DNA of 42,058 nucleotides from assembly GCA_009927045.1 (NCBI GenBank), contig RFNT01000100.1, positions 1 through 42,058 on the forward strand, in the 5' to 3' direction. A program made the translations under genes and the position numbers. The notes beneath the pieces were generated by a model. The model worked only from the letters and a program-made list of their open reading frames with translations, was not told the DNA's origin and ran no database searches. Positions 17,025 to 28,277 of the stretch are shown one piece after another (within the stretch, counting starts at the first letter, position 1; each line of letters begins with the position of its first letter). The stretch comes from a bacterium (GTDB lineage Bacteria; Bdellovibrionota; FAC87; UBA2466).

Positions 17025-17051
17025 TTAACAAAAATTTAACGAGATGCGAAC
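17025..17051. promoter_or_regulatory. Three AAC-containing half-sites at 11-bp period upstream of GH15
   Basis: TTAAC at 17025, TTAAC at 17036 and CGAAC at 17047 are spaced exactly 11 bp, in the gap between phoR and the GH15 gene. The spacing equals that of Pho boxes. On the gene's own strand the pair reads GTTAA/GTTAA, like the porin site, but no -10 hexamer sits at a suitable distance. This is a weak candidate. Confidence 0.25.
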
Positions 17052-17100
17052 AAAACTCACCAAAAATCGGAGGGTTTTTCGCGCTGAGTTAAGATTTTGA

Positions 17101-18783
17101 TTATCCAGGAAATCTGCAAGTAAACGTGGAGCCCTGGCCCGATGCACTTTCTACCCAAACCGCTCCTTCATGGCGTTGCATGATGTGCTTCACAATCGCG
17201 AGTCCCAGTCCGGTTCCCCCTTGTTCCCGAGAGCGAGCTTTATCAATGCGATAAAACCGCTCAAAGAGCCGGCCAAGATGTTCCATAGGAATTCCTGGGC
17301 CTGTGTCTTGGACCTTCAAAAAGACATCTTTGCCGCCTTTCCGATCTTGCTCCCAAGATACGGAAATCTTGCCTCCTTCAGGAGTGTACTTGCTGGCGTT
17401 ATCCAATAAGTTGATAAGGACTTGTTCCAACCGATTCGGATCAGCAACTACGGAAAGAGATTCTAATTTCAAGTCAGCGGTTTGCGATTTTTGTGCAAAC
17501 CGCGGCTGCAGTTGCTTCAAGATCCGTTCGCTCACTTCCTTAGTAGAAATACTCTCTTTGTGGAGCAACAAACTGGATTCAAGTGCTGAGAGTTCGAGCA
17601 AATCACCCATTAAATTCATGAGGCGCTCTGCATTTCGAGCAATGATTCCTAAATATTCTCGCTCCGGTCCCGATTCACTGCCCGAATCCAACAAAAGCGT
17701 TTCCGTATAGCCCTTAATAGCTGTCAGCGGGGTTCTGAGTTCATGAGAAACGTTTGCAACAAAATCAATTCGCATTTGCTCTGCTGCTTTAAGTTCCGTG
17801 ATATCGTGAAAAATTCCTAGCGCTCCGTAAATAACACCGCCTTGCTTTCGCAGAGGTGAAACAGAAAGAGAAAAATACCGTTTGGGCTGATGCTCGGTTT
17901 CCAGTGAAAAAGCCCGAGTTCCCCCTGATTTGCCCTCGGTGAGCGCTCGTTTGTACGCTTTCAAAATTTCCGGATCTCTTAAAATTTCCCAGAGTTTGAC
18001 GTTACGACGTACTTTTCCTCCCCCGAAAATCATTTCAAAGCGACTGTTGTAGAAAATGGGGATCTCCTCGGGATCGACGGCTAGGATGGCATCGGAAATC
18101 GCCCCCATGATAGCATCTAATTCTACTTGCTCGGTATTCAGACTCTGGACCGTATTCTCCAAATTTTTTCCAAGATCATCAATTTGAGATTCTAAATCTG
18201 ACCACTCGCCAAAAGCTTCTTCTTCCAAATCTTCTTGAGTGAGCACTCGTGGATGTCGAGCAACCAGATTTTGAGTCTTGATGAGCAACCTTCCGAGCGG
18301 AAAGACCAATTTCCTAGCAAACCACAACGAAACCAGTAGCAATGTAATACCGACCCCCAACAACACTAACGAAAGCGAAGTGTTGTAGACTTTGATGTCA
18401 GCATTCAGCTGTTCTAAAGGCAAAGTCGCACGGAGCAACTGGTTTTTCTGAGGTATGGCAAGTTCCGCCAAAACGACTTCTGAAGCCGTCTGGCCCGATT
18501 GGCACAGGACCTGCCCTTCGGCATTGAGGAGTGTGAGCTGAAACCGGGTCCCGGCAGCAACGGCAGCACACCAGTCTGATTGTGTTTTTTCTGTGGGAAG
18601 CTCTTTCGTAAGCAGCAAAAGACTATCTTCTAATTGCGTTTGGGCCTGCCTTAAGAAGACTTTTTTGAAAAAGTACCTAGCGGCAAAACCAGAAACGGCA
18701 ATTGCAATGACTACCAGCATGGCTTGAACGAGAGCCACTCGGTAAAAACTTCGCCAAGGAAAGGGTTGGGGTATCAATCGCAC
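17101..18783 (-). CDS. phoR: Phosphate regulon sensor histidine kinase PhoR
   Basis: A 560-residue membrane kinase that phosphorylates PhoB when phosphate is scarce. Two transmembrane helices (about 17-37 and 137-156) flank a roughly 100-residue periplasmic part, unlike E. coli PhoR, which lacks a real periplasmic domain. A linker and a PAS domain (about 220-335) follow. The H-box is FVANVSHELRTPLTAIKGY with His347. The ATPase part has NLLDNASKYTPEGG, DTGPGIP and GGTGLGLAIVKHI. It lies 9 bases behind phoB, at the end of the pst-pho run, so the assignment to phosphate sensing is firm from context. Confidence 0.93.
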   Translation of the reverse strand: MRLIPQPFPWRSFYRVALVQAMLVVIAIAVSGFAARYFFKKVFLRQAQTQLEDSLLLLTKELPTEKTQSDWCAAVAAGTRFQLTLLNAEGQVLCQSGQTASEVVLAELAIPQKNQLLRATLPLEQLNADIKVYNTSLSLVLLGVGITLLLVSLWFARKLVFPLGRLLIKTQNLVARHPRVLTQEDLEEEAFGEWSDLESQIDDLGKNLENTVQSLNTEQVELDAIMGAISDAILAVDPEEIPIFYNSRFEMIFGGGKVRRNVKLWEILRDPEILKAYKRALTEGKSGGTRAFSLETEHQPKRYFSLSVSPLRKQGGVIYGALGIFHDITELKAAEQMRIDFVANVSHELRTPLTAIKGYTETLLLDSGSESGPEREYLGIIARNAERLMNLMGDLLELSALESSLLLHKESISTKEVSERILKQLQPRFAQKSQTADLKLESLSVVADPNRLEQVLINLLDNASKYTPEGGKISVSWEQDRKGGKDVFLKVQDTGPGIPMEHLGRLFERFYRIDKARSREQGGTGLGLAIVKHIMQRHEGAVWVESASGQGSTFTCRFPG

Positions 18784-18792
18784 AGTAAACTT

Positions 18793-19488
18793 CTATAAGG
18801 TATCGGCAACGCGATAACCTACTCCACGAATGGTTTCTACTAGATTTGCACAGGCGCCGAGCTTTTTTCTAAGTCCAAAAATATGAGTATCTATAGCTCG
18901 ATCAATCACCGTCACTCCTTCTCCTTGAACGCATTCAATGAGACGTTCTCGAGTGAGCACTCGTCCTCGATTTTTCATCATGGCATGCAGCAATTTGAAT
19001 TCAGAAGGAGTTAATTCAATGGGACTATCCTGACACCTTACTTCATGCCTTTCGGCATCCAGAACCAACTGACCAATTTGAATCCGTTGAGTACTCTCCT
19101 CTTTTTCCTCGCGTTGCGAACGACGCAGTAACGCCCGAACTCGAGCCAAAAAAACGGGGAGATCAAAAGGTTTTGTGATGTAATCATCGGCTCCCATCTC
19201 TAATCCCAACACGATATCTGTAGTTTGTGCTCGGGCGGTCACCAACAAAATGGGCGTTGTTCGCTGATGAGACGCTGAAGCTCGGAGTCGTTTACAAATA
19301 TCTAATCCGGAAATCCCAGGAAGCATCCAATCTAACACTAAAAGTGAGAAGGGATTTCGTTCCAACGCCTGAAAAGCTTGTTCCCCGTTCTCCGCAACTT
19401 CAACTTCCAAACCCTCACGCTTTAAGTGCAAAGCCATCAAATCAGCGATGTCTTTTTCATCTTCAACAATCAGCACTCTATTTTTCAT
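18793..19488 (-). CDS. phoB: Phosphate regulon response regulator PhoB
   Basis: A 231-residue OmpR-class regulator that binds Pho boxes when phosphorylated. The receiver domain has VLIVEDE at the start, the phosphoacceptor Asp53 in LLVLDWMLPG, Thr/Ser near LLVTARA, and Lys in YITKPFD. A winged helix follows (ELTPSEFKLLHAMMKNRGRV, then HIFGLRKKLG and IRGVGYRV). ATG 19488 was chosen over an upstream open frame: MKNRVLIVED is the family start, and AAGGAAG precedes it. It overlaps the phoU stop by 11 bases. It is the natural regulator of the Pho-like sites at 3589, 23739 and 27011. Confidence 0.95.
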   Translation of the reverse strand: MKNRVLIVEDEKDIADLMALHLKREGLEVEVAENGEQAFQALERNPFSLLVLDWMLPGISGLDICKRLRASASHQRTTPILLVTARAQTTDIVLGLEMGADDYITKPFDLPVFLARVRALLRRSQREEKEESTQRIQIGQLVLDAERHEVRCQDSPIELTPSEFKLLHAMMKNRGRVLTRERLIECVQGEGVTVIDRAIDTHIFGLRKKLGACANLVETIRGVGYRVADTL

Positions 19489-20161
19489 CGGGACTTCCTT
19501 TCTTACGAAAGTGGCTATGACGAACATCCTGACCAGAAATAGTAAAAATGACGTCTTCCGCGATGTTGGTCGCGTGATCCCCAATCCGCTCTAAATTTCT
19601 TGCAATCAAAATGACGTTCAGCCCTTGCTCAACCTCTTGCGGCGTCTGTTTCAAATGAGCTAACACGTCTTTAAACACTTTGTTTTTTAATTGATCGACT
19701 TCATCATCGGCATCCAAAACGTTTTGCGCTAAGACCGCATCTTCTTTAATAAAAGCATCGATGGCATTTTTTACAAGTTCCCGAACAATTTCCGACATTC
19801 GGATCAGATCCGAGAGGTCCTGATAAGGGGGATGCTGCAAATAGTAAACCGCATTATTGGAGATGTTGACGGCTTGATCCGCCATGCGCTCAATGTCCGA
19901 GTTGGTTTTCACGACTGATAAAATAAAGCGTAAATCAGTCGCTAAGGGCTGCTGGGTCGCTAATAATTTCAAACATGCGGCATCTACATCCAGATGAGCT
20001 TGATTCACTTTATCTTCAATGGCGTTCACGCGTTCGATCATCTCTCGAGAGCGATTACGCCAGGCAAGGGTTGCGTTCTTAACTGCCTCTTCTAAGTACC
20101 CAGCCATTTGGACCAACTGAGCTTTCAATTCATTTAAACCGATGTCGATACTTCTTTGCAT
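19478..20161 (-). CDS. phoU: Phosphate transport regulator PhoU
   Basis: A 227-residue helical protein that links the Pst transporter to PhoR and keeps the regulon off when phosphate is plentiful. It consists of two PhoU repeats, each a three-helix bundle with metal-binding acidic motifs: ELKAQLVQMAGYLEEAV, IEDKVNQAHLDVDAACLKLL and the RFILSVVKTNSDIERMADQA motif in the first; the second has VLDADDEVDQLKNKVF and LIARNLERIGDHATNIAEDV. Its ATG overlaps the pstB stop as TAATG. Confidence 0.95.
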   Translation of the reverse strand: MQRSIDIGLNELKAQLVQMAGYLEEAVKNATLAWRNRSREMIERVNAIEDKVNQAHLDVDAACLKLLATQQPLATDLRFILSVVKTNSDIERMADQAVNISNNAVYYLQHPPYQDLSDLIRMSEIVRELVKNAIDAFIKEDAVLAQNVLDADDEVDQLKNKVFKDVLAHLKQTPQEVEQGLNVILIARNLERIGDHATNIAEDVIFTISGQDVRHSHFRKKGSPDEK

Positions 20162-20922
20162 TAGCCAAACTTTCCTGTGATGTATTGTTCTGTTTTCTTT
20201 TCTTTGGGCACAGTAAAAAGCGTCGAAGTTTGACCAAATTCTACCAGTTCCCCCAAAAGAAAAAACGCAGTTTTATCGGAAATCCGGGCTGCTTGTTGCA
20301 TGTTGTGAGTAACCATTATCACGGTCATCGTTTTCTTGAGCTCGGCTAATAATTCTTCAATTTTTGCTGTAGAGATCGGGTCTAAAGCACTCGTGGGTTC
20401 ATCCATTAAAAGGATGGGGGGTTCAACTGCCAAAGCCCGGGCAATACAGAGCCGTTGTTGTTGCCCACCGGACAAACTCGTTCCCGGTTGTTGCAGTTTA
20501 TTTTTTACTTCTTCCCAAAGAGCTGCTTGCTTGAGGCTTCGCTCGGCAACTTCCATCAAAATGCTTTTTCTTCGAATCCCGGCTAATTTTAGGCCAGCAA
20601 CCACATTGTCGAACACCGACAACGAGGGAAAAGGATTGGGTTTTTGAAAGACCATTCCCACTTTTCGACGAATCAATACCGGATCCACGGAACTTTCATA
20701 AATATTTTTACCCTGCAGAATCACTTTTCCAGTGGCATAGGCGCCAGGCACTTCTTCATGCAACCTATTTAAACAGCGAACGAAAGTGGACTTTCCACAT
20801 CCCGAGGGACCGATGAGGGCAGTCACCGTTTGTGGAGAAAACTCAATCTGAATATTTTTGAGTGCTTGATGCATTCCAAACCAAGCATTCAAGTTTTGAA
20901 CGGATAAAAGTGTCTCAGTCAT
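20161..20922 (-). CDS. pstB: Phosphate ABC transporter ATPase PstB
   Basis: A 253-residue ATPase that drives phosphate import by PstCA. Walker A is GPSGCGKST at about 39-46, the signature [15 protein letters not shown], Walker [14 protein letters not shown], and the switch histidine in [23 protein letters not shown] is characteristic of PstB. ATG 20922 was chosen because it overlaps the pstA stop as ATGA and gives the normal family start; the longer open frame upstream is not supported. Confidence 0.96.
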
Positions 20923-21779
20923 TTCATCACCCAACGGGTCACAGTATTCAACAAAAACACAAAAAGCACTAAAACAAAAGCCCCCACCCAAGCCTGCACA
21001 TTCCAGTCTTCAAAAGGAGATATCGCATAGGTATAAATCTGAACCGGCAACGAAGCCATCGGCTGATCCCACTTGAGAGATAACAACCGATTGTTCAGTG
21101 CCGTGAAAAGCAAAGGGGCTGTTTCTCCACTGATGCGAGCAACTCCCAAAATAATTCCCGTCGTAAGTCCCCCTCTGCTGCCCCTCAAGACAATCGATAA
21201 AATGACCCGCCAGCGCGGAATCCCCAAGGCCAACCCGGCTTCCCGAATGTGCTGTGGAACTAACTTCAGCAATTCCTCCGTATTTCTTGCCACAATAGGA
21301 ATGAGGATGACCGACAAAGCTAAAGCCCCAGCAAACCCTGAAAATCGGTGCATGGGCCGAACAATCAGGACATAAATAAAAAGTCCTGTCACAATGGATG
21401 GAACTGAGGACAACATGTCTGCTGCGAATCGCACCCAAACAGCCAAACGTCCTCGCCCATATTCCGATAAATAAACTCCAGCGGCCATTCCCCAAGGCAC
21501 CCCAATCCCAGTGCCCAAGGCGACCATAAAAAGACTTCCTAACAGCGCATTGAGCATGCCCCCGCCAGGTTCACCTACAGGCTGCGGAAGCCCAGTAAAA
21601 AAAGAGACACTGAAATGAGGCACAGCTTTCCATACCACGTAACCAAAGACGCCTAGCAGCCCACCTGCAGCAGCACAAGCTGAAACCGTCAGACAAAAAG
21701 TCATCCAGCCACTCAATGCTTTTCTGCGCCGGTAGCGGAGCCGAGTAAAATCTCCAATTTGCCGTCTCAAACTCGTCAT
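20919..21779 (-). CDS. pstA: Phosphate ABC transporter permease PstA
   Basis: An inner-membrane permease of about 286 residues with six predicted helices. The coupling loop [19 protein letters not shown] (the EAA motif) is clear, and [15 protein letters not shown] and [15 protein letters not shown] are PstA marks. Two ATG codons lie four codons apart. ATG 21779 overlaps the pstC stop as ATGA and is preferred; ATG 21791 would add METE. It pairs with PstC to form the channel. Confidence 0.94.
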
Positions 21780-22693
21780 TTCAGTCTCCAAATGAAGAGG
21801 CGAGCTACGGCATTGGTCACAAATGTAATCCCAAACAAAAGAAGTCCCACTAGAGCAAGAGCTGAAAGGTGAACATCACTTGTCGCCTCTGCATATTCAT
21901 TCGCAATCACACTCGCCATGGTTTGAGCAGGCGCCAATAAAGAACTCACAATCTGTGCCCGATTTCCAATCACCATCGTTACAGCCATCGTTTCTCCCAA
22001 AGCACGGCCCAGGCCTAACATGAAAGCCGCGAACAAACCGCTGCGAGAACTCCTTAGAAGTGCAAGCTTCATCATTTCCCAACGAGTAGCTCCCAATGCC
22101 AAAGCAGCTTCCCTCTGATTTTCAGGAATCGCTCGAAACACCTCTCGGGAAACGGAGGAAATCGTGGGTAATACCATTAACGACAACACGCACCCAGCAG
22201 CCATCATCCCCACTCCATAGGCGGGCCCTTGAAACATCGGTAGAAATCCCAGTTTTTGAATGAGGAGGGGTTGTACTTCAGTCCGCAACCAAGGCACCAA
22301 AACAAAAACACCCCATAATCCGTAAACCACACTCGGAATAGCTGCTAACATTTCAACAAGAAAGCCCAGAACTTTAGCAAGAAAAGGAGGCGCCAATTCA
22401 TTCAGGAATAGAGCAACTCCCACACTCAAGGGAAAAGCAATGAACAAGCTCAAAAAAGAAGAAATCAAAGTGCCGTAGACCACTGGCAATGCCCCGTAAA
22501 CATCTCGCACGGGATCCCATGCTGAAGTCGTCAAAAATGTAAAAAACGAGATGCTTTTTAGGGCAGTCCCAGAAGCGTCCCAGAGAAAAAATCCCATCCC
22601 TAAGAGGAGAACGATTACAGCAAGAGCTAAAAATCGGACACAGGCTAAAAAAAAACGATCGGCAAATCGAACATCTTTTTTCAACTGACGCAT
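21776..22693 (-). CDS. pstC: Phosphate ABC transporter permease PstC
   Basis: An inner-membrane permease of 305 residues with six predicted helices. PstC marks: WDPVRDVYGALPVVYGTLIS, the EAA loop REAALALGATRWEMMKLALL, and GRALGETMAVTMVIGN. ATG 22693 was chosen: it starts one base after the pstS stop and gives MRQLKKDVRF before the first helix. An upstream open frame inside pstS is not needed. Confidence 0.94.
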   Translation of the reverse strand: MRQLKKDVRFADRFFLACVRFLALAVIVLLLGMGFFLWDASGTALKSISFFTFLTTSAWDPVRDVYGALPVVYGTLISSFLSLFIAFPLSVGVALFLNELAPPFLAKVLGFLVEMLAAIPSVVYGLWGVFVLVPWLRTEVQPLLIQKLGFLPMFQGPAYGVGMMAAGCVLSLMVLPTISSVSREVFRAIPENQREAALALGATRWEMMKLALLRSSRSGLFAAFMLGLGRALGETMAVTMVIGNRAQIVSSLLAPAQTMASVIANEYAEATSDVHLSALALVGLLLFGITFVTNAVARLFIWRLK

Positions 22694-22694
22694 G

Positions 22695-23711
22695 TTACGG
22701 AACAACTTTGATTGTTTGAAGAGTAGCTTCCAAGCGCTTGATGAGTGCCGGAGGCAATGGGGCATACTCTAATGTTTGTGCTCTGGATTGCCCTTCACTC
22801 AAAGCCCATTTCAGAAAAGCAACCAGTCCCTGTCCTTTATTAGATTTCGACATGTCTTGCCGAATCAATAAATAAGTGAAGGCGCTGATTGGATAACTGC
22901 CTTTGCCCGAAGCTTGGGTCAACGAGAGTCGATAATCTTTCGGCATCTGAGATATTTCGGAAAGAGCCGCTGCAGTCAGAGATTTCAATGTAGGTTCTAC
23001 AAACTCCCCGCGTTTATTTTTGACTTGAGCTACAGAAAGCCCGTTTGTTTTAGCATAAACGTATTCGATGTACCCGATGCTCTGAGGGGTTTGTTTGATG
23101 AGCCCAGCAACCCCTTCATTGCCTTTTCCACCGAGACCCACTGGCCAATTCACTGCAGTCCCCGCACCTACTTTATCTTTCCATGGGGTACTGACTTTGC
23201 TGAGGTAATCCGTGAACACTCCGGTTGTGCCACTCCCATCCGAACGATGAATTACTAAAATACTTCCTTTAGCACTTAAATCAGGATTGATAGCTTTCAA
23301 GCGCGGATCTTCCCATTGGGTAATCTCCCCCAAGAATATTCCAGCAATGAGTTCTCCGGTGAGTTTCAGTGTTTTTACTCCGGGAAGATTAAAACTGAGA
23401 ACAACTGAGCCAATAGCAGTGGGGACGTGCAGCATCGGCTCGCCCACTTTTTTAATCTGCTCATCGGTCATGGGGGTATCAGTGGCCCCAAAATCAATGG
23501 TGCGATCTGTAAATTGGCGAATGCCTCCACCGCTTCCAATCGATTGATAGTTGATTTGAACGTCGGGATTCACTTTTTGAAAATCTGTGAACCACTTGGA
23601 ATAAAGCGGATAGGGAAAGGTGGCTCCTGCTCCATGGATGAGAGTTGCGGTGCTGGCGAGTCCGGAAAAACAAATGCTGGAAAGGATCAGCAGTCTTTGT
23701 ACTTTTTTCAT
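22695..23711 (-). CDS. pstS: Periplasmic phosphate-binding protein PstS
   Basis: A 338-residue binding protein that delivers phosphate to PstCA. A signal peptide (MKKVQRLLILSSICFSGLAS) leads. The phosphate site is clear: GAGATFPYPLYSKW, NYQSIGSGGGIRQFTDRTID, FGATDTPMTDEQ and HRSDGSGTTGVFTDYL. The signal has no lipobox cysteine at the cut, so the protein is soluble. It is the first gene of the pst run, and a Pho-like repeat lies in the 57 bases before it. The preceding GH1 gene is on the same strand, so read-through from the PHP promoter may add to its expression. Confidence 0.95.
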   Translation of the reverse strand: MKKVQRLLILSSICFSGLASTATLIHGAGATFPYPLYSKWFTDFQKVNPDVQINYQSIGSGGGIRQFTDRTIDFGATDTPMTDEQIKKVGEPMLHVPTAIGSVVLSFNLPGVKTLKLTGELIAGIFLGEITQWEDPRLKAINPDLSAKGSILVIHRSDGSGTTGVFTDYLSKVSTPWKDKVGAGTAVNWPVGLGGKGNEGVAGLIKQTPQSIGYIEYVYAKTNGLSVAQVKNKRGEFVEPTLKSLTAAALSEISQMPKDYRLSLTQASGKGSYPISAFTYLLIRQDMSKSNKGQGLVAFLKWALSEGQSRAQTLEYAPLPPALIKRLEATLQTIKVVP

Positions 23712-23719
23712 GCCCCCAC

Positions 23720-23760
23720 TTTAGAATTTTCGGCAAAAACGTGTGTTAAGATTCGGTTAG
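23720..23760 (-). promoter_or_regulatory. Candidate Pho-box promoter of pstS
   Basis: On the minus strand, the 11-mers CTAACCGAATC and TTAACACACGT follow each other, with TAAC repeated at exactly 11 bp. The first matches the unit in front of the PHP gene at 9 of 11 positions. A TCTAAA hexamer (23725-23720) lies 13 bases further, as a possible -10. Placement right before pstS, the most conserved PhoB target, supports the call. The sequence departs from the E. coli consensus. Confidence 0.5.
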
Positions 23761-23768
23761 GGATTCAA

Positions 23769-25136
23769 CTATTTCTTATTTTTCAAGTACTTATCAAATA
23801 CCCCCTGCAGGATAGCCTCCTCAGGAGGAGCATATCCGGCTTGATGAGCCTCAATCCATGCACGGTACATTTCCGCAGAGGGTCTGGGAACTCGGGAGAA
23901 GTTGGAATAATCGACTGCTATCAATCCAAAGCGGGGTTTGAACCCTTTCACCCATTCAAAATTGTCTAAGAGCGACCAATAGAAATAACCTCGGACGTCG
24001 GCCCCAGCTTTGATCTCTCGAGCCACTTCTTTCAAATGAGTGAACATATAATCCTCACGAAAGGCATCTGCGCCATCCGCGATTCCATTTTCGGTAATAA
24101 AAATCGGCAATCGGTAATTTTTAACAAACCGGATCATTCGGCCCAAGCCGCTGGGATGAAAGCCCCACCCCATTTCGGAAATGGGTTCTCCAGGATCACT
24201 AAACCCCACTCCAAACATAAAACCGGGGGCCGTTTCAAACTGCTCCCCGCGAGCCCGCCATCTCAAAATCGCTTTGGAGTAATAATTGATTCCCACGAAA
24301 TCCGTTGTCAGTCGGCCTAGGGCCTCTGGAACTTCAGGAACCTGCGGAACCATTCCTGCAATTCCAAACTGTGGCCGTTTTCCTGTGGTGGCATCCAACC
24401 AACTCTGATTATAAAAATTTCTGGCTACAAAAGTCAGAAGGCGTTCCATCGGATGCCAATGCCGAGCAGGAACAAAATCCATCATGTTGTGCGCATAGCC
24501 CACCATCAGGGGGTGATGCCGCCAAGGACCTCGGCGGTGAGACACCTCAGAGTGAATGCAATCGTAAGCACTGACGTGCGCTTTTAAAAGCCCTCGAAAT
24601 AACTGGCTGCATTTTTCTGGCTGATAAATGGCTGGCGGTTGAAAACCAGCCAAATACTTTCCAACGCACATGATGACAGGTTCATTCACAGTGCACCAAA
24701 GTGGGATTCGATCGCCCAGCACTTGAACTATTTTTTTCACATAGTTTTTGAATTTGATCCCAGCATTTTCTGCAGTGAAGTCTCCCATGGCCGAAAACCA
24801 TTGGGGGGACGTAAAATGATGGAGAGTGACCATCGGCAACAACTTGAGTTTTTCACATTCGGCAAGAACCTCTGCATACCAGTCGAGGGCGTCCAAATCC
24901 CAACATCCCTCTTCTGGCTCCACACGGGACCACTCAATCGAAAATCGATAGGCATTGAGGCCCAACTCTTTCGCTAAACGTAAATCTTCTTGATACCGAT
25001 TCCTATGATCCGTAGCAGGACCACTGGTCACGCTGCCCTCAATGTGACCTGCTTGTTCCCAAGCCCACCAATCATTCTTGGTGTTGTAACCTTCAATTTG
25101 ATGGCTGCTAGTAGCTGCTCCCCACAAAAACTTCAC
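23769..25136 (-). CDS. GH1 family beta-glucosidase
   Basis: A 455-residue glycoside hydrolase family 1 enzyme, which cleaves beta-linked glucose or galactose with retention. The catalytic acid/base is Glu152 in CTVNEP and the nucleophile is Glu349 in FITENG. FLWGAATSSHQIEG, YRFSIEWSRVEP and GYFYWSLLDNFEW are also typical. There is no signal peptide, so it acts in the cytoplasm. The start is GTG, directly after the TAA of the glycosyltransferase gene with no gap. Because it shares a transcript with a GT21-type glucosyltransferase, a glycolipid may be its substrate; plant-type or disaccharide substrates are equally possible by sequence. Confidence 0.9.
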   Translation of the reverse strand: MKFLWGAATSSHQIEGYNTKNDWWAWEQAGHIEGSVTSGPATDHRNRYQEDLRLAKELGLNAYRFSIEWSRVEPEEGCWDLDALDWYAEVLAECEKLKLLPMVTLHHFTSPQWFSAMGDFTAENAGIKFKNYVKKIVQVLGDRIPLWCTVNEPVIMCVGKYLAGFQPPAIYQPEKCSQLFRGLLKAHVSAYDCIHSEVSHRRGPWRHHPLMVGYAHNMMDFVPARHWHPMERLLTFVARNFYNQSWLDATTGKRPQFGIAGMVPQVPEVPEALGRLTTDFVGINYYSKAILRWRARGEQFETAPGFMFGVGFSDPGEPISEMGWGFHPSGLGRMIRFVKNYRLPIFITENGIADGADAFREDYMFTHLKEVAREIKAGADVRGYFYWSLLDNFEWVKGFKPRFGLIAVDYSNFSRVPRPSAEMYRAWIEAHQAGYAPPEEAILQGVFDKYLKNKK

Positions 25137-26276
25137 TTAACAGTCTCCCTCCACCAGCCCCCCCTGAAGGAGACGATACCTAGCACCTCGCCAATCCACG
25201 GTGTGTCCAAATAAGATAGAACCCCAGAGCGGCAGAGCCAACGCCTCTCTCACCCACCAAGCTCCTAAGGCCCGCATTGAAAACCGATCGGAGAGAATGT
25301 GGAGACTCAAATCCATAAGTGCCCATCCTATCATATGGACAGCCCACACTTCGAAAAAGGCAATACCGAACCAAGTTCCGAGGGCATAGGCTCCTGCCAT
25401 CCCGGAAATGGATGAGAAAAAGAAAGGTTCCGCTAGAAAAGCAAGGGGTGCGATTGATTTTCGAATTCTTCCCCAACGTAAATGTCGTTTCCAAAACTGC
25501 TCCAAAGAATAAGTTCCAATGTGCTGCTCTACTGGGGACCGCATCAACTCGACTCGAAGATCGAGTTTACTCATGGCATGACCAGCCATATAGTCTTCTG
25601 CAATATAACTTCCAAGAGTTTTGATGCCCCCTATTCTCTCAATCGTTTGTTTTCGGAAAAGCATCGACTTTCCGACCACGCTGGGAAATCCCAAATGTTT
25701 GGTGACAAACATCCAGCGCGTGAAAAAAGTATTCAAATAAGAAGCTTCGAGGAGGCCGCCGAGGCCCCGCGGGGAAACTCCGGCCACCACTCCTGTGATA
25801 ATTCCAACATTTTGACTGAAATCAGGCACCATTCGTTTCAGATAGTGCGGTTGAACTCGAATATTTGAATCACTAATGAGGAGCAGATCCCACTTGGCCT
25901 TTTTGTAAGAATCTAACAGATTATTGATTTTAGGATTCACTTCATCACTGAACTTACTCACGATGAGCTCACTTGAAACATTCGGATATTTTCTCTGAAG
26001 TTCCTGGACGATCGTCACAGCCGGATCCTCTACTTCGGCAACAGAGAACAACAATTCGTAACTCGGATAATCCAAAAGAAAAAAACTCTCAAGATTCTCT
26101 GACAAACCAACATCAAACCCCTTTAAGGGTTTGAGTATGGAAACTGGCGGAAGCTGTTTTTCTGCTTTTCTGGGGGTCCAGGAAGTGTAGTGCTTAAAAA
26201 CTAAGACTGTGCCCCAAAGGAGCAGTCCCCAATTGAGAATCCAAAGTCCGAGACAGAACACGGATAAGACTGTCAT
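25137..26276 (-). CDS. GT21-type (ceramide glucosyltransferase-like) glycosyltransferase
   Basis: A 379-residue membrane glycosyltransferase. An N-terminal helix (about 5-27) leads into a GT-A domain: PPVSILKPLKG at 43-53, the acidic D1 near 84, D2 in SDSN at 136-139, D3 in AEDY at 226-229, and RHLRW at 264-268, the (Q/R)xxRW motif. This D1-D2-D3-(Q/R)xxRW layout defines ceramide glucosyltransferases. Further helices follow and an end DWRGARYRL as in bacterial HpnI/GT21 members. The acceptor may be ceramide, diacylglycerol or another lipid; bacterial homologues vary. ATG 26276 has an AGGAG site and overlaps the PHP gene by 83 bases. Confidence 0.82.
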   Translation of the reverse strand: MTVLSVFCLGLWILNWGLLLWGTVLVFKHYTSWTPRKAEKQLPPVSILKPLKGFDVGLSENLESFFLLDYPSYELLFSVAEVEDPAVTIVQELQRKYPNVSSELIVSKFSDEVNPKINNLLDSYKKAKWDLLLISDSNIRVQPHYLKRMVPDFSQNVGIITGVVAGVSPRGLGGLLEASYLNTFFTRWMFVTKHLGFPSVVGKSMLFRKQTIERIGGIKTLGSYIAEDYMAGHAMSKLDLRVELMRSPVEQHIGTYSLEQFWKRHLRWGRIRKSIAPLAFLAEPFFFSSISGMAGAYALGTWFGIAFFEVWAVHMIGWALMDLSLHILSDRFSMRALGAWWVREALALPLWGSILFGHTVDWRGARYRLLQGGLVEGDC

Positions 26277-26970
26277 GGATGGGCTCCTCTCGATAGAAGT
26301 GAAAATCCAGTTGTTGTGTTTTGATAGCCCTTAATATCGCTTCAGGATGTTTCTCACATGCCATGAGATTTTTCCAAGAAGTGAGGTTCTTTTCGGTGTG
26401 GAAATCACTGTTAGCAATCAACGGGAGCCCAGCTCTTTCTACTTCATTGAACCAGAACGGACCGCTAGCAACTTCCCAAGCATCCACGCTATCACGCAAT
26501 TCCTCTCTGCGCTCCCACAGGTGATAGGTTTGCTTTTCAAGCTTTCGAGTTGAAACCGGATGAGCAGCAATGACTACTCCTCCTTGAGAACGTGCTTTTT
26601 GACTGGTCACGCTGATATCTTCACTGGGATCGATATTTTCGAGAGTTCCCAAAACTAAGAAGTGTGCTGAGCGATGATTGGAAATTGAATTTTTAGTGAT
26701 TTCCAATCCGGGAATGAGTTGCATGCGGTACTGTTCCCAAGCTCTCACCTTTTCAGATTTCAATATTTCCCGATACAGCGGCAAAGTAGCACGAGTCAGA
26801 GTGACACCCAAATAAGACGATGCTTTTCCGATGAGTGAACTTTGTTCACAATAATGATCCGTGATCGCAATGGCTCCAAAATTTCTTTTTCCAAAATAAT
26901 CCACCAGGAAAGGAATACTGTATTTGCCATCACTGAAATTCGAGTGGATGTGAAAATCCGCTAGATACAT
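26194..26970 (-). CDS. PHP-domain metal-dependent phosphoesterase
   Basis: A 258-residue enzyme of the PHP fold, which hydrolyses phosphoester bonds using two or three metal ions. All metal ligands are seen: HIH at 7-9, Asp38-His39 in ITDH, Glu90 in GLEI, His137 in AHP, and Asp189 and His191 in NSDFH. There is no signal peptide. It lacks polymerase or histidinol-phosphatase features, so it belongs to the stand-alone group of unknown substrate. It is the first gene of the PHP-GT21-GH1 unit and begins 20 bases after a -10 element behind tandem Pho-like repeats. A phospholipid head group or phosphatidic acid is a reasonable guess from the neighbours only. Confidence 0.8.
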   Translation of the reverse strand: MYLADFHIHSNFSDGKYSIPFLVDYFGKRNFGAIAITDHYCEQSSLIGKASSYLGVTLTRATLPLYREILKSEKVRAWEQYRMQLIPGLEITKNSISNHRSAHFLVLGTLENIDPSEDISVTSQKARSQGGVVIAAHPVSTRKLEKQTYHLWERREELRDSVDAWEVASGPFWFNEVERAGLPLIANSDFHTEKNLTSWKNLMACEKHPEAILRAIKTQQLDFHFYREEPIHDSLIRVLSRTLDSQLGTAPLGHSLSF

Positions 26971-26989
26971 TGAACATCACTTTACCGGG

Positions 26990-27032
26990 CTTATATCTGT
27001 ACCTGATGAGGAATTGTTTAGGAATTGGTTAG
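26990..27032 (-). promoter_or_regulatory. Tandem 11-mer Pho-box promoter of the PHP-GT21-GH1 unit
   Basis: On the minus strand CTAACCAATTC (27032-27022) is followed directly by CTAAACAATTC (27021-27011), identical at 10 of 11 positions. A third, weaker unit beginning CTCATCA comes next. A TATAAG hexamer (26995-26990) stands 8 bases after CTCATCA, the distance at which PhoB-activated promoters carry their -10. The PHP gene starts 20 bases later. The direct repeat is seen; its binding by PhoB is inferred from the 11-bp period and the match to the pstS site. Confidence 0.55.
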
Positions 27033-27044
27033 CTCACGGAAGAC

Positions 27045-28277
27045 TCAACGCAACAAGGCCACTGCAAGAAGAGATGTTATGAGTAACAGAATAGAACCTG
27101 TCCAGAAGGGCAACCCTGGATACACTTGAAAGAGCAATCCAGATACCGAAGGCCCCAAGACACGGCCCAAGGCAGCGAGAGATTGTCCTAAACCTAAAGT
27201 GCCTCCTTGCTCATCGGCGTCAACTGAACGTGACAACAGACTCGAGAGCGAAGGGTGCGTGATTCCCGTCCCAGACGCCATGATGATAGCTACTAAGAGC
27301 ATCCCTCCGTAAACACCAGACCATCCGATTTCAGGAATTAAAAAGAATGCTAGAGCTACGAGGGCGGGACCCACAACTAATAATTTTTTTTCTCCAAATC
27401 GTTTAGCAAGTTTTCCAATCAAGTAACCCTGAACAATAGTAGCTGTCACTCCCACCACAATCAGCATGTACGCTGTCAAACTTGCGGCATGCTTGCTTTC
27501 AAAATCAGTGCTTATACTTCCATGAGGCACCCAATAGTGTTGAATAAAGAGCCCCAACACATTTTCCATCATGGAAAACGAGGCAGAAAAGATGAGGTAC
27601 ATAGCGAGAATATAACCCACTTGAGGATGCCGAGCTGCGTGCTTGAGCGCCGCCCAAGAAAGCTGCGGGCGACTGGTCACCTTGGGTACATGAAGTGCCT
27701 TCGCTTCTTTAACAGGATTCGTCTCAGGTAACCGAATCAAAGCGATGACCCAATTGATTGCTGAAAGCCCGGCAGCTACGAATGCAGGAGCCTCTAAGCC
27801 AAACTTCACCACGAGTCCCCCCAAAACAGGACCAAAAATAAATCCCAAACCGAATGCCGCTCCAATCAATCCCATTCCTTTTGCTCGATTTTCAGCGTCT
27901 GTACTGTCCGCAATGATGGCTTGGGCTGTACCGATATTGGCGCTTCCCAAACCCGAGAGCATTCGGGCGATGAACAAAACGGTTAAGCTGCTTGAAAGTC
28001 CAAATAACAAGTAACCGAAAGCCGTCAAAGCGATGCTGATTAACATGACAGGACGCCGCCCGATTCGATCCGAAAGCCGTCCCCAAAAAGAACCAAATAA
28101 AAACTGCATGGCGGAAAAAGAAGCCCCCAACAAAGTGATCACTGAAGGACTTGCTCCGAGCTTCTGAGCGTAAAAAGGTTGAATGGGAATGAGAATTCCG
28201 AAGCCAATCAAATCTAAAAAAACGGTAAAAAAGACAATGCCAAGAATAGAAGAGCGAGTTTGCGGGCTACCAGACAT
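27045..28277 (-). CDS. MFS efflux transporter, TetA-like
   Basis: A 410-residue inner-membrane transporter with twelve predicted helices. Motif A is GSFWGRLSDRIGRRPVMLIS in the first cytoplasmic loop. Motif C-like glycines occur in GLIGAAFGLGFIFGPVLGG, typical of drug/proton antiporters of the DHA1 type that include tetracycline exporters. FFTVFLDLIGFGILIPIQPF at the start is the TetA-class opening. A resistance phenotype cannot be claimed from this alone. It is followed by the PHP promoter 12 bases after its stop, so the two units are separate. Confidence 0.85.
   Translation of the reverse strand: MSGSPQTRSSILGIVFFTVFLDLIGFGILIPIQPFYAQKLGASPSVITLLGASFSAMQFLFGSFWGRLSDRIGRRPVMLISIALTAFGYLLFGLSSSLTVLFIARMLSGLGSANIGTAQAIIADSTDAENRAKGMGLIGAAFGLGFIFGPVLGGLVVKFGLEAPAFVAAGLSAINWVIALIRLPETNPVKEAKALHVPKVTSRPQLSWAALKHAARHPQVGYILAMYLIFSASFSMMENVLGLFIQHYWVPHGSISTDFESKHAASLTAYMLIVVGVTATIVQGYLIGKLAKRFGEKKLLVVGPALVALAFFLIPEIGWSGVYGGMLLVAIIMASGTGITHPSLSSLLSRSVDADEQGGTLGLGQSLAALGRVLGPSVSGLLFQVYPGLPFWTGSILLLITSLLAVALLR

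Follow-up and report, generated by a model that had tools for sequence, protein, structure and literature searches.

The DNA analysed here, called the window, is a stretch of 42,058 nucleotides (contig RFNT01000100.1) from a relative of predatory bacteria in the phylum Bdellovibrionota, taken from a 2.39-Mb metagenome-assembled genome (MAG) that is 95% complete, and it contains three genes of the PHP, GT21 and GH1 families directly upstream of pst and pho genes. All lie on the minus strand in the order PHP-GT21-GH1-pstS-pstC-pstA-pstB-phoU-phoB-phoR. The first gene (26194..26970; PF02811, 28.3 bits) encodes a TM0559-like, PHP-family metallophosphoesterase-like protein of 258 residues with a predicted cytosolic location, the second (25137..26276; PF13506, 159.5 bits) a GT21 membrane glucosyltransferase of 379 residues resembling ceramide glucosyltransferase and HpnI, and the third (23769..25136; PF00232, 274 bits) a GH1 beta-glucosidase-type enzyme of 455 residues. 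All three open reading frames are intact and tightly packed, the PHP and GT21 genes overlapping by 83 nt and the GTG start codon of the GH1 gene at 25136 being the base immediately after the GT21 stop codon, while the 57 bp between the end of the GH1 gene and the start of pstS include the Pho box of pstS itself. An earlier note on this DNA had described three overlapping or abutting genes on the same strand upstream of pstSCAB-phoU-phoB-phoR, which the open reading frames and family matches bear out, and its family calls were right, with PHP scoring just above the cut-off. Taken together, these genes are most plausibly read as an operon working like plcP-agt, albeit with parts other than PlcP and Agt. 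Judged from sequence, it is likely that a PhoB-controlled operon here spares phosphate by way of a beta-glucosylated membrane lipid, whose acceptor would be ceramide or diacylglycerol.

Upstream of the PHP gene, a Pho box at 27011..27032 (minus strand) comprises two tandem 11-mers, CTAACCAATTC and CTAAACAATTC, read from 27032 to 27011, which are identical at 10 of 11 positions and fit the Pho box of the phylum, a direct repeat with the consensus CTAACCAAATCCTAACAA that recurs upstream of pstS in relatives phylum-wide. The corresponding box before pstS of the window lies at 23743..23760 on the minus strand (CTAACCGAATCTTAACAC). For scoring, a matrix was built from 12 pstS-promoter sites. Using this matrix without the window's own genus, the pstS site ranked first in the 42-kb window with 20.6 bits and the PHP site second with 19.4 bits, followed by a 13.4-bit site that overlaps the PHP site and by the top unrelated site with 12.7 bits. 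Since none of 60 Markov-shuffled windows yielded a site of at least 19.4 bits (maximum 18.0), the tandem repeat represents more than chance. When PHP promoters of homologues across the phylum were scored with the own genome omitted each time, 20 of 25 fell within the top 5% of 381 control upstream regions, with about one expected (Mann-Whitney p 5e-12, which is only a guide, as related genomes are not independent). The highest-scoring controls belong to other phosphate genes, namely ppk1 and phosphodiesterase/alkaline phosphatase. A chance origin of the PHP Pho box is ruled out by the shuffled windows and by the promoters of the homologues. Scans of the locus for sigma-70 promoters and terminators remained at the level of shuffled sequence. 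The likeness of the PHP repeat to that before pstS had been noticed earlier and Pho control proposed; the top two ranks of these sites in the window and the motif scores of PHP promoters phylum-wide uphold both, and Pho control of the three-gene unit is a supported, motif-based prediction.

Gene order was surveyed in a phylum sample of 59 genomes, in 80 named loci and in four loci of Nitrospirota. Both PHP and a close GT21 are present in 13 of the 59 genomes and are adjacent in every one of them (13/13); in genome G003 a contig end separates the two, the tail of PHP lying directly before GT21. Every genome of the genus (three, from three species) and locus L110 carry the complete PHP-GT21-GH1-pst block. 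Other arrangements are PHP-GT21-GH1-ppk1 in G004, PHP-GT21-ppk1 in G008, and MFS-GH1-Pho box-phoB-phoR, with a relocated GH1, in G009 and G012. In 24 of the 80 named loci, PHP is directly followed by GT21. Within four genes of PHP, 32 loci have a phosphate gene and 22 an OlsB-like or LPLAT gene, and 61 loci exhibit at least one of these features. GH1 is never found at this distance unless GT21 is present. In many genomes the neighbours of PHP are ppk1, alkaline phosphatase, GDPD, phoBR or pstS. In Nitrospirota, PHP-GT21 is kept in four loci, with GH1 and pst genes nearby in L182-L184, and in L182 an alkaline phosphatase gene follows PHP-GT21, divergent from an EAL-GGDEF-kinase-GH1-pstCAB run. 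This recurrence in a second phylum speaks against an accidental grouping. PHP-GT21-GH1 neighbourhoods near pst or pho genes, for which a search had been recommended, were found in the genus, in L110 and near pst in Nitrospirota, and the three-gene order, whose absence from relatives would have spoken against the earlier proposal, is kept. On the side, EAL, GGDEF and histidine kinase genes between the divergent halves of L182 (4380-6832) suggest a link of cyclic di-GMP to phosphate control, and in G010 (L059 8447-9407) stops and a change of frame disrupt the GT21 gene after an intact PHP gene, a recent loss.

The PHP protein has the fold and the trinuclear metal-ligand set of the PHP superfamily, and its ligands H7, H9, D14, H39, E90, H103, H137, D189 and H191 (HxH/D/H/E/H/H/DxH) are invariant over 22 homologues. 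Its closest solved structure is the uncharacterised TM0559 (2anu), matched over the full length with a profile E-value of 4.5e-65, and the AlphaFold2 model (pLDDT 87.7) has a TM-score of 0.91 to 2anu (on target), with the next families much further away. No hydrophobic segment fit for a signal peptide or a membrane helix was found in the protein. Assignments as RNase AM or 3',5'-nucleoside bisphosphatase (18.7 and 23 bits against cut-offs of 375 and 400) and as CehA/McbA metallohydrolase (NF038032, 54.3 bits against a cut-off of 80) were rejected. PlcP is a metallophosphoesterase of the PF00149 type, and membership of the window protein in this family was likewise rejected, since only PF02811 matched. 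An independent role for PHP follows from the fact that half of the PHP-bearing relatives examined lack GT21. In such genomes, its location beside GDPD, OlsB-like, LPLAT or phosphate genes fits a general freeing of phosphate from lipids or lipid-derived esters, and a function as a phospholipase-C substitute is plausible.

For the GT21 enzyme, the closest solved structure is human ceramide glucosyltransferase UGCG (26qf), matched over the full length with 225.7 bits, and residues D136, D228 and RHLRW 264-268, corresponding to the D, D, (Q/R)xxRW signature, are nearly invariant. Its identification with Agt, a GT4 enzyme of GT-B fold, was rejected, as it matches PF13506 of GT21 and is a relative of ceramide glucosyltransferase. 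A second GT21 gene of the same genome (L064 4534-5685, contig C245), encoding a protein 42% identical to the first, has neither an adjacent PHP gene nor a clear Pho box. The GH1 enzyme contains the catalytic E152 (NEP) and E349 (TENG) expected of its family. Its best solved relative is 1vff (284 bits), the structure that ranks first for each of three separate GH1 homologues taken from loci of this kind, with Nitrospirota supplying one. This is BGPh, a membrane-bound beta-glycosidase of Pyrococcus horikoshii with a preference for long alkyl glucosides (PMC4687101). The GH1 class and its beta specificity agree with the product presumed for GT21, both expected anomers being beta. Pairing of a lipid glucosyltransferase with a lipid-type beta-glucosidase, as proposed earlier, is supported by the nearest structures of both enzymes.

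Under scarce phosphate, PhoB would bind the tandem 11-mers at 27011-27032, as conservation of the motif suggests. The cytosolic PHP metalloenzyme could then act on a lipid, or on a phosphoester derived from one, and cleave off its phosphate or phospho-headgroup, freeing phosphate and possibly diacylglycerol or ceramide. Going by its family, the GT21 membrane enzyme would use UDP-glucose to attach a beta-linked glucose to ceramide or diacylglycerol, and GH1 may trim, recycle or transglycosylate the resulting beta-glucolipid for as long as the operon is expressed. Phosphate-controlled synthesis of phosphorus-free lipids appears to exist independently in the same genome, because an OlsB-like gene (L223 1574-2428) and an OlsA-like gene (L223 93-1577), both on contig C219, lie behind a 21.3-bit Pho box, and this pair is probably responsible for phosphate-controlled synthesis of an ornithine-type lipid. 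Of the overall scheme put forward in the earlier note, Pho control, gene order and the pairing of glucosyltransferase with glucosidase are retained, whereas the reversal by GH1 is not, and the acceptor is revised, being maybe ceramide.

Two readings of the operon differ primarily in this acceptor. According to one, GT21 is a glucosylceramide synthase and GH1 is glucosylceramidase-like, with PHP being a separate phosphate scavenger or acting on phosphosphingolipids, and we regard this as a strong contender that falls just short of evenly balanced. Besides the full-length match of GT21 to the human ceramide glucosyltransferase, it draws on a run of three genes in the own genome (L233 5976-9377, contig C124), consisting of a serine palmitoyltransferase-like gene, an acyltransferase-like gene (no Pfam match) and an NAD-epimerase-family gene. 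The first product is nearest to the Sphingobacterium serine palmitoyltransferase (406 bits against 299 for the next family), and its best relatives are serine palmitoyltransferases, at 495 bits against a cut-off of 640. The genes spt, bcerS and cerR cluster in bacteria (PMC11334938), and the run, with a like layout, is a candidate ceramide operon, in which the partner genes fit by position only. A GDPD gene lies near this run. Taking at least about 370 bits to the own-genome enzyme as presence (our own threshold), a serine palmitoyltransferase-like enzyme occurs in 23 of 27 genomes with GT21, including all four Nitrospirota GT21 genomes, as compared to 23 of 46 without (Fisher p 0.002, kinship and MAG completeness ignored). 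On account of this operon and this co-occurrence, ceramide may take the place of diacylglycerol as the acceptor. However, the association is confounded by phylogeny, no clear serine palmitoyltransferase was seen in four GT21 genomes (MAGs that are incomplete or of unassessed completeness), a Pho box is missing from the spt operon, its bcerS and cerR assignments are putative, and the GT21 enzyme Pgt of Agrobacterium favours diacylglycerol over ceramide (PMC3972451). The latter observation lends itself to the other reading, that of the earlier note, in which PHP is a functional PlcP or a phosphatidate phosphatase giving diacylglycerol and GT21 makes glucosyl-diacylglycerol, which we hold to be possible, if rather doubtful. 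Its logic and regulation are those of plcP-agt operons (PMC4796936, PMC8231724), known GT21 enzymes use diacylglycerol too (PMC3972451), and the overlap of the PHP and GT21 genes suggests a coupled function. An obvious Pho-controlled PlcP is also missing, since no Pho box was found in the fetched surroundings of the own genome's PF00149 genes, one of which is LpxH-like. It is opposed by the co-occurrence of serine palmitoyltransferase, which favours ceramide, and by the presence of PHP in many genomes without a close GT21; moreover, a search of open-licence PMC papers revealed no PHP enzyme with phospholipase C activity and none in Pho-controlled lipid remodelling. That GT21 is HpnI of hopanoid synthesis can practically be discounted: HpnI is indeed its top NCBIfam match, but with 238 bits under a cut-off of 310, and squalene-hopene cyclase is absent from the own genome and genus, with none above the cut-off in the family, which argues against this assignment.

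The role of GH1 is a further point of divergence. In the earlier note GH1 takes the glycolipid apart when phosphate returns, which is unlikely as stated, because GH1 seems to depend on the starvation promoter too and two relatives have it directly before phoB-phoR. Such a reversal is no more likely than turnover in the course of starvation or a transglycosylation like that of plant SFR2. SFR2 itself belongs to GH1. It is the plant GGGT (PMC11525325). That GH1 would serve in vivo as a transglycosylase instead of a hydrolase, building di- or oligo-glucosyl lipids like SFR2, is nevertheless unlikely: its predicted co-expression with the transferase, instead of opposing it, and the membrane-associated, lipid-type glucosidase as its closest structure would suit such a role, but its sequence offers nothing that separates hydrolysis from transglycosylation. 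A very improbable explanation is that three unrelated sugar and phosphate genes came to lie beside pst by accident. GH1 and GT21 are sometimes absent and PHP is found alone, as passenger genes might be, but the adjacency is maintained across families and in a second phylum, and the Pho box precedes PHP even where pst lies elsewhere. Several points weigh against the preferred reading of a phosphate-sparing glycolipid operon. The counts rest on relatives that are mostly incomplete MAGs, GH1 is missing from many PHP-GT21 loci, and PHP occurs without GT21 in 12 of 25 PHP-bearing relatives, so that a shared substrate is not required. PHP has no characterised close relative, and substrates in its superfamily include nucleotides, sugar phosphates and even carbamates. 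Finally, inducing a glycosidase along with a glycosyltransferase would seem futile unless the glycosidase serves remodelling. With these points considered, we propose only tentatively, and with somewhat less than even confidence, that TM0559-like PHP proteins, which are widespread in Bdellovibrionota and also occur in Nitrospirota, are a new and non-homologous class of bacterial lipid phosphoesterases under Pho control (phospholipase C, or a phosphatase acting on phosphatidate or phosphosphingolipids). Together with a GT21 enzyme that makes glucosylceramide or glucosyl-diacylglycerol, and with a lipid-directed glucosidase or transglycosylase, they would form a lipid-swap operon independent of PlcP-Agt.

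The remaining genes of the block, all on the minus strand, are pstS (22695..23711; TIGR00975, 390.7 bits), pstC (21776..22765) and pstA (20919..21791), both assigned by homology and position in the pst operon, pstB (20161..20991; TIGR00972, 382.9 bits), phoU (19478..20161; TIGR02135, 194.4 bits), phoB (18793..19584 from the first ATG/GTG/TTG of the open reading frame, the real start being probably later; top NCBIfam match TIGR02154 PhoB, 228 bits) and phoR (17101..18783; top matches PnpS, 341 bits, and TIGR02966 PhoR, 290 bits). On the other side, a Tet(A)-like MFS transporter gene (27045..28277, minus strand; PF07690) is probably outside the regulated unit, because it lies upstream of the Pho box of PHP, yet it is conserved beside PHP, preceding it in both congeners and preceding GH1-phoB-phoR in G009 and G012; it is a possible candidate for a lipid or glycolipid transporter. 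After phoR comes a GH15 glucoamylase-like gene (PF00723; 15596-17017, minus strand), preceded by tandem Pho-box-like repeats at 17025-17053 on the opposite (plus) strand (12.3 and 11.1 bits), and in G009 and G012 a GH15 gene with a 25.5-bit box in the same orientation also adjoins phoR.

If the preferred reading holds, the exchange of phospholipids for glycolipids under phosphate stress was put together at least twice from unrelated enzymes, and a function could be assigned to a large PHP family so far uncharacterised. Tests of the phosphate biology and the sphingolipids of Bdellovibrionota, and of some Nitrospirota, would come within reach, and a Pho-regulated bacterial relative of human ceramide glucosyltransferase, accompanied by a lipid-type glucosidase, could be used as a bench model. 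Among the individual proteins, TM0559 of Thermotoga maritima (2anu) belongs to the same family as the window PHP over its full length, with a PHP fold and as yet no characterisation, human UGCG (26qf) shares full-length homology and the same catalytic motifs with the window GT21, and BGPh is the nearest structural relative of GH1 homologues from such loci, but neither phosphate regulation nor a link to a GT21 is known for it. Among known systems, the plcP-agt operon of Sinorhizobium, Agrobacterium, Roseobacter and SAR11 resembles the window operon in having a phosphoesterase gene beside that of a lipid glycosyltransferase, phosphate control and an expected phosphorus-free glycolipid (PMC4796936, PMC8231724). 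However, Agt is a GT4 enzyme of GT-B fold (PMC8231724), whereas the window operon combines PF02811, GT21 and GH1 in another phylum, and by sequence its enzymes are unrelated to the textbook ones. The processive Pgt glycosyltransferases of Mesorhizobium and Agrobacterium share the GT21 family (PMC8231724), a Pho box before pgt and the use of diacylglycerol or ceramide (PMC3972451), a likeness drawn from their description only, and no PHP or GH1 partner is described for them. In Caulobacter, a ceramide-based glycolipid is likewise synthesized in low phosphate under PhoB, through Sgt1 and Sgt2 (PMC6445935), but with GT4 enzymes and without PHP or GH1, unlike the operon of the window.

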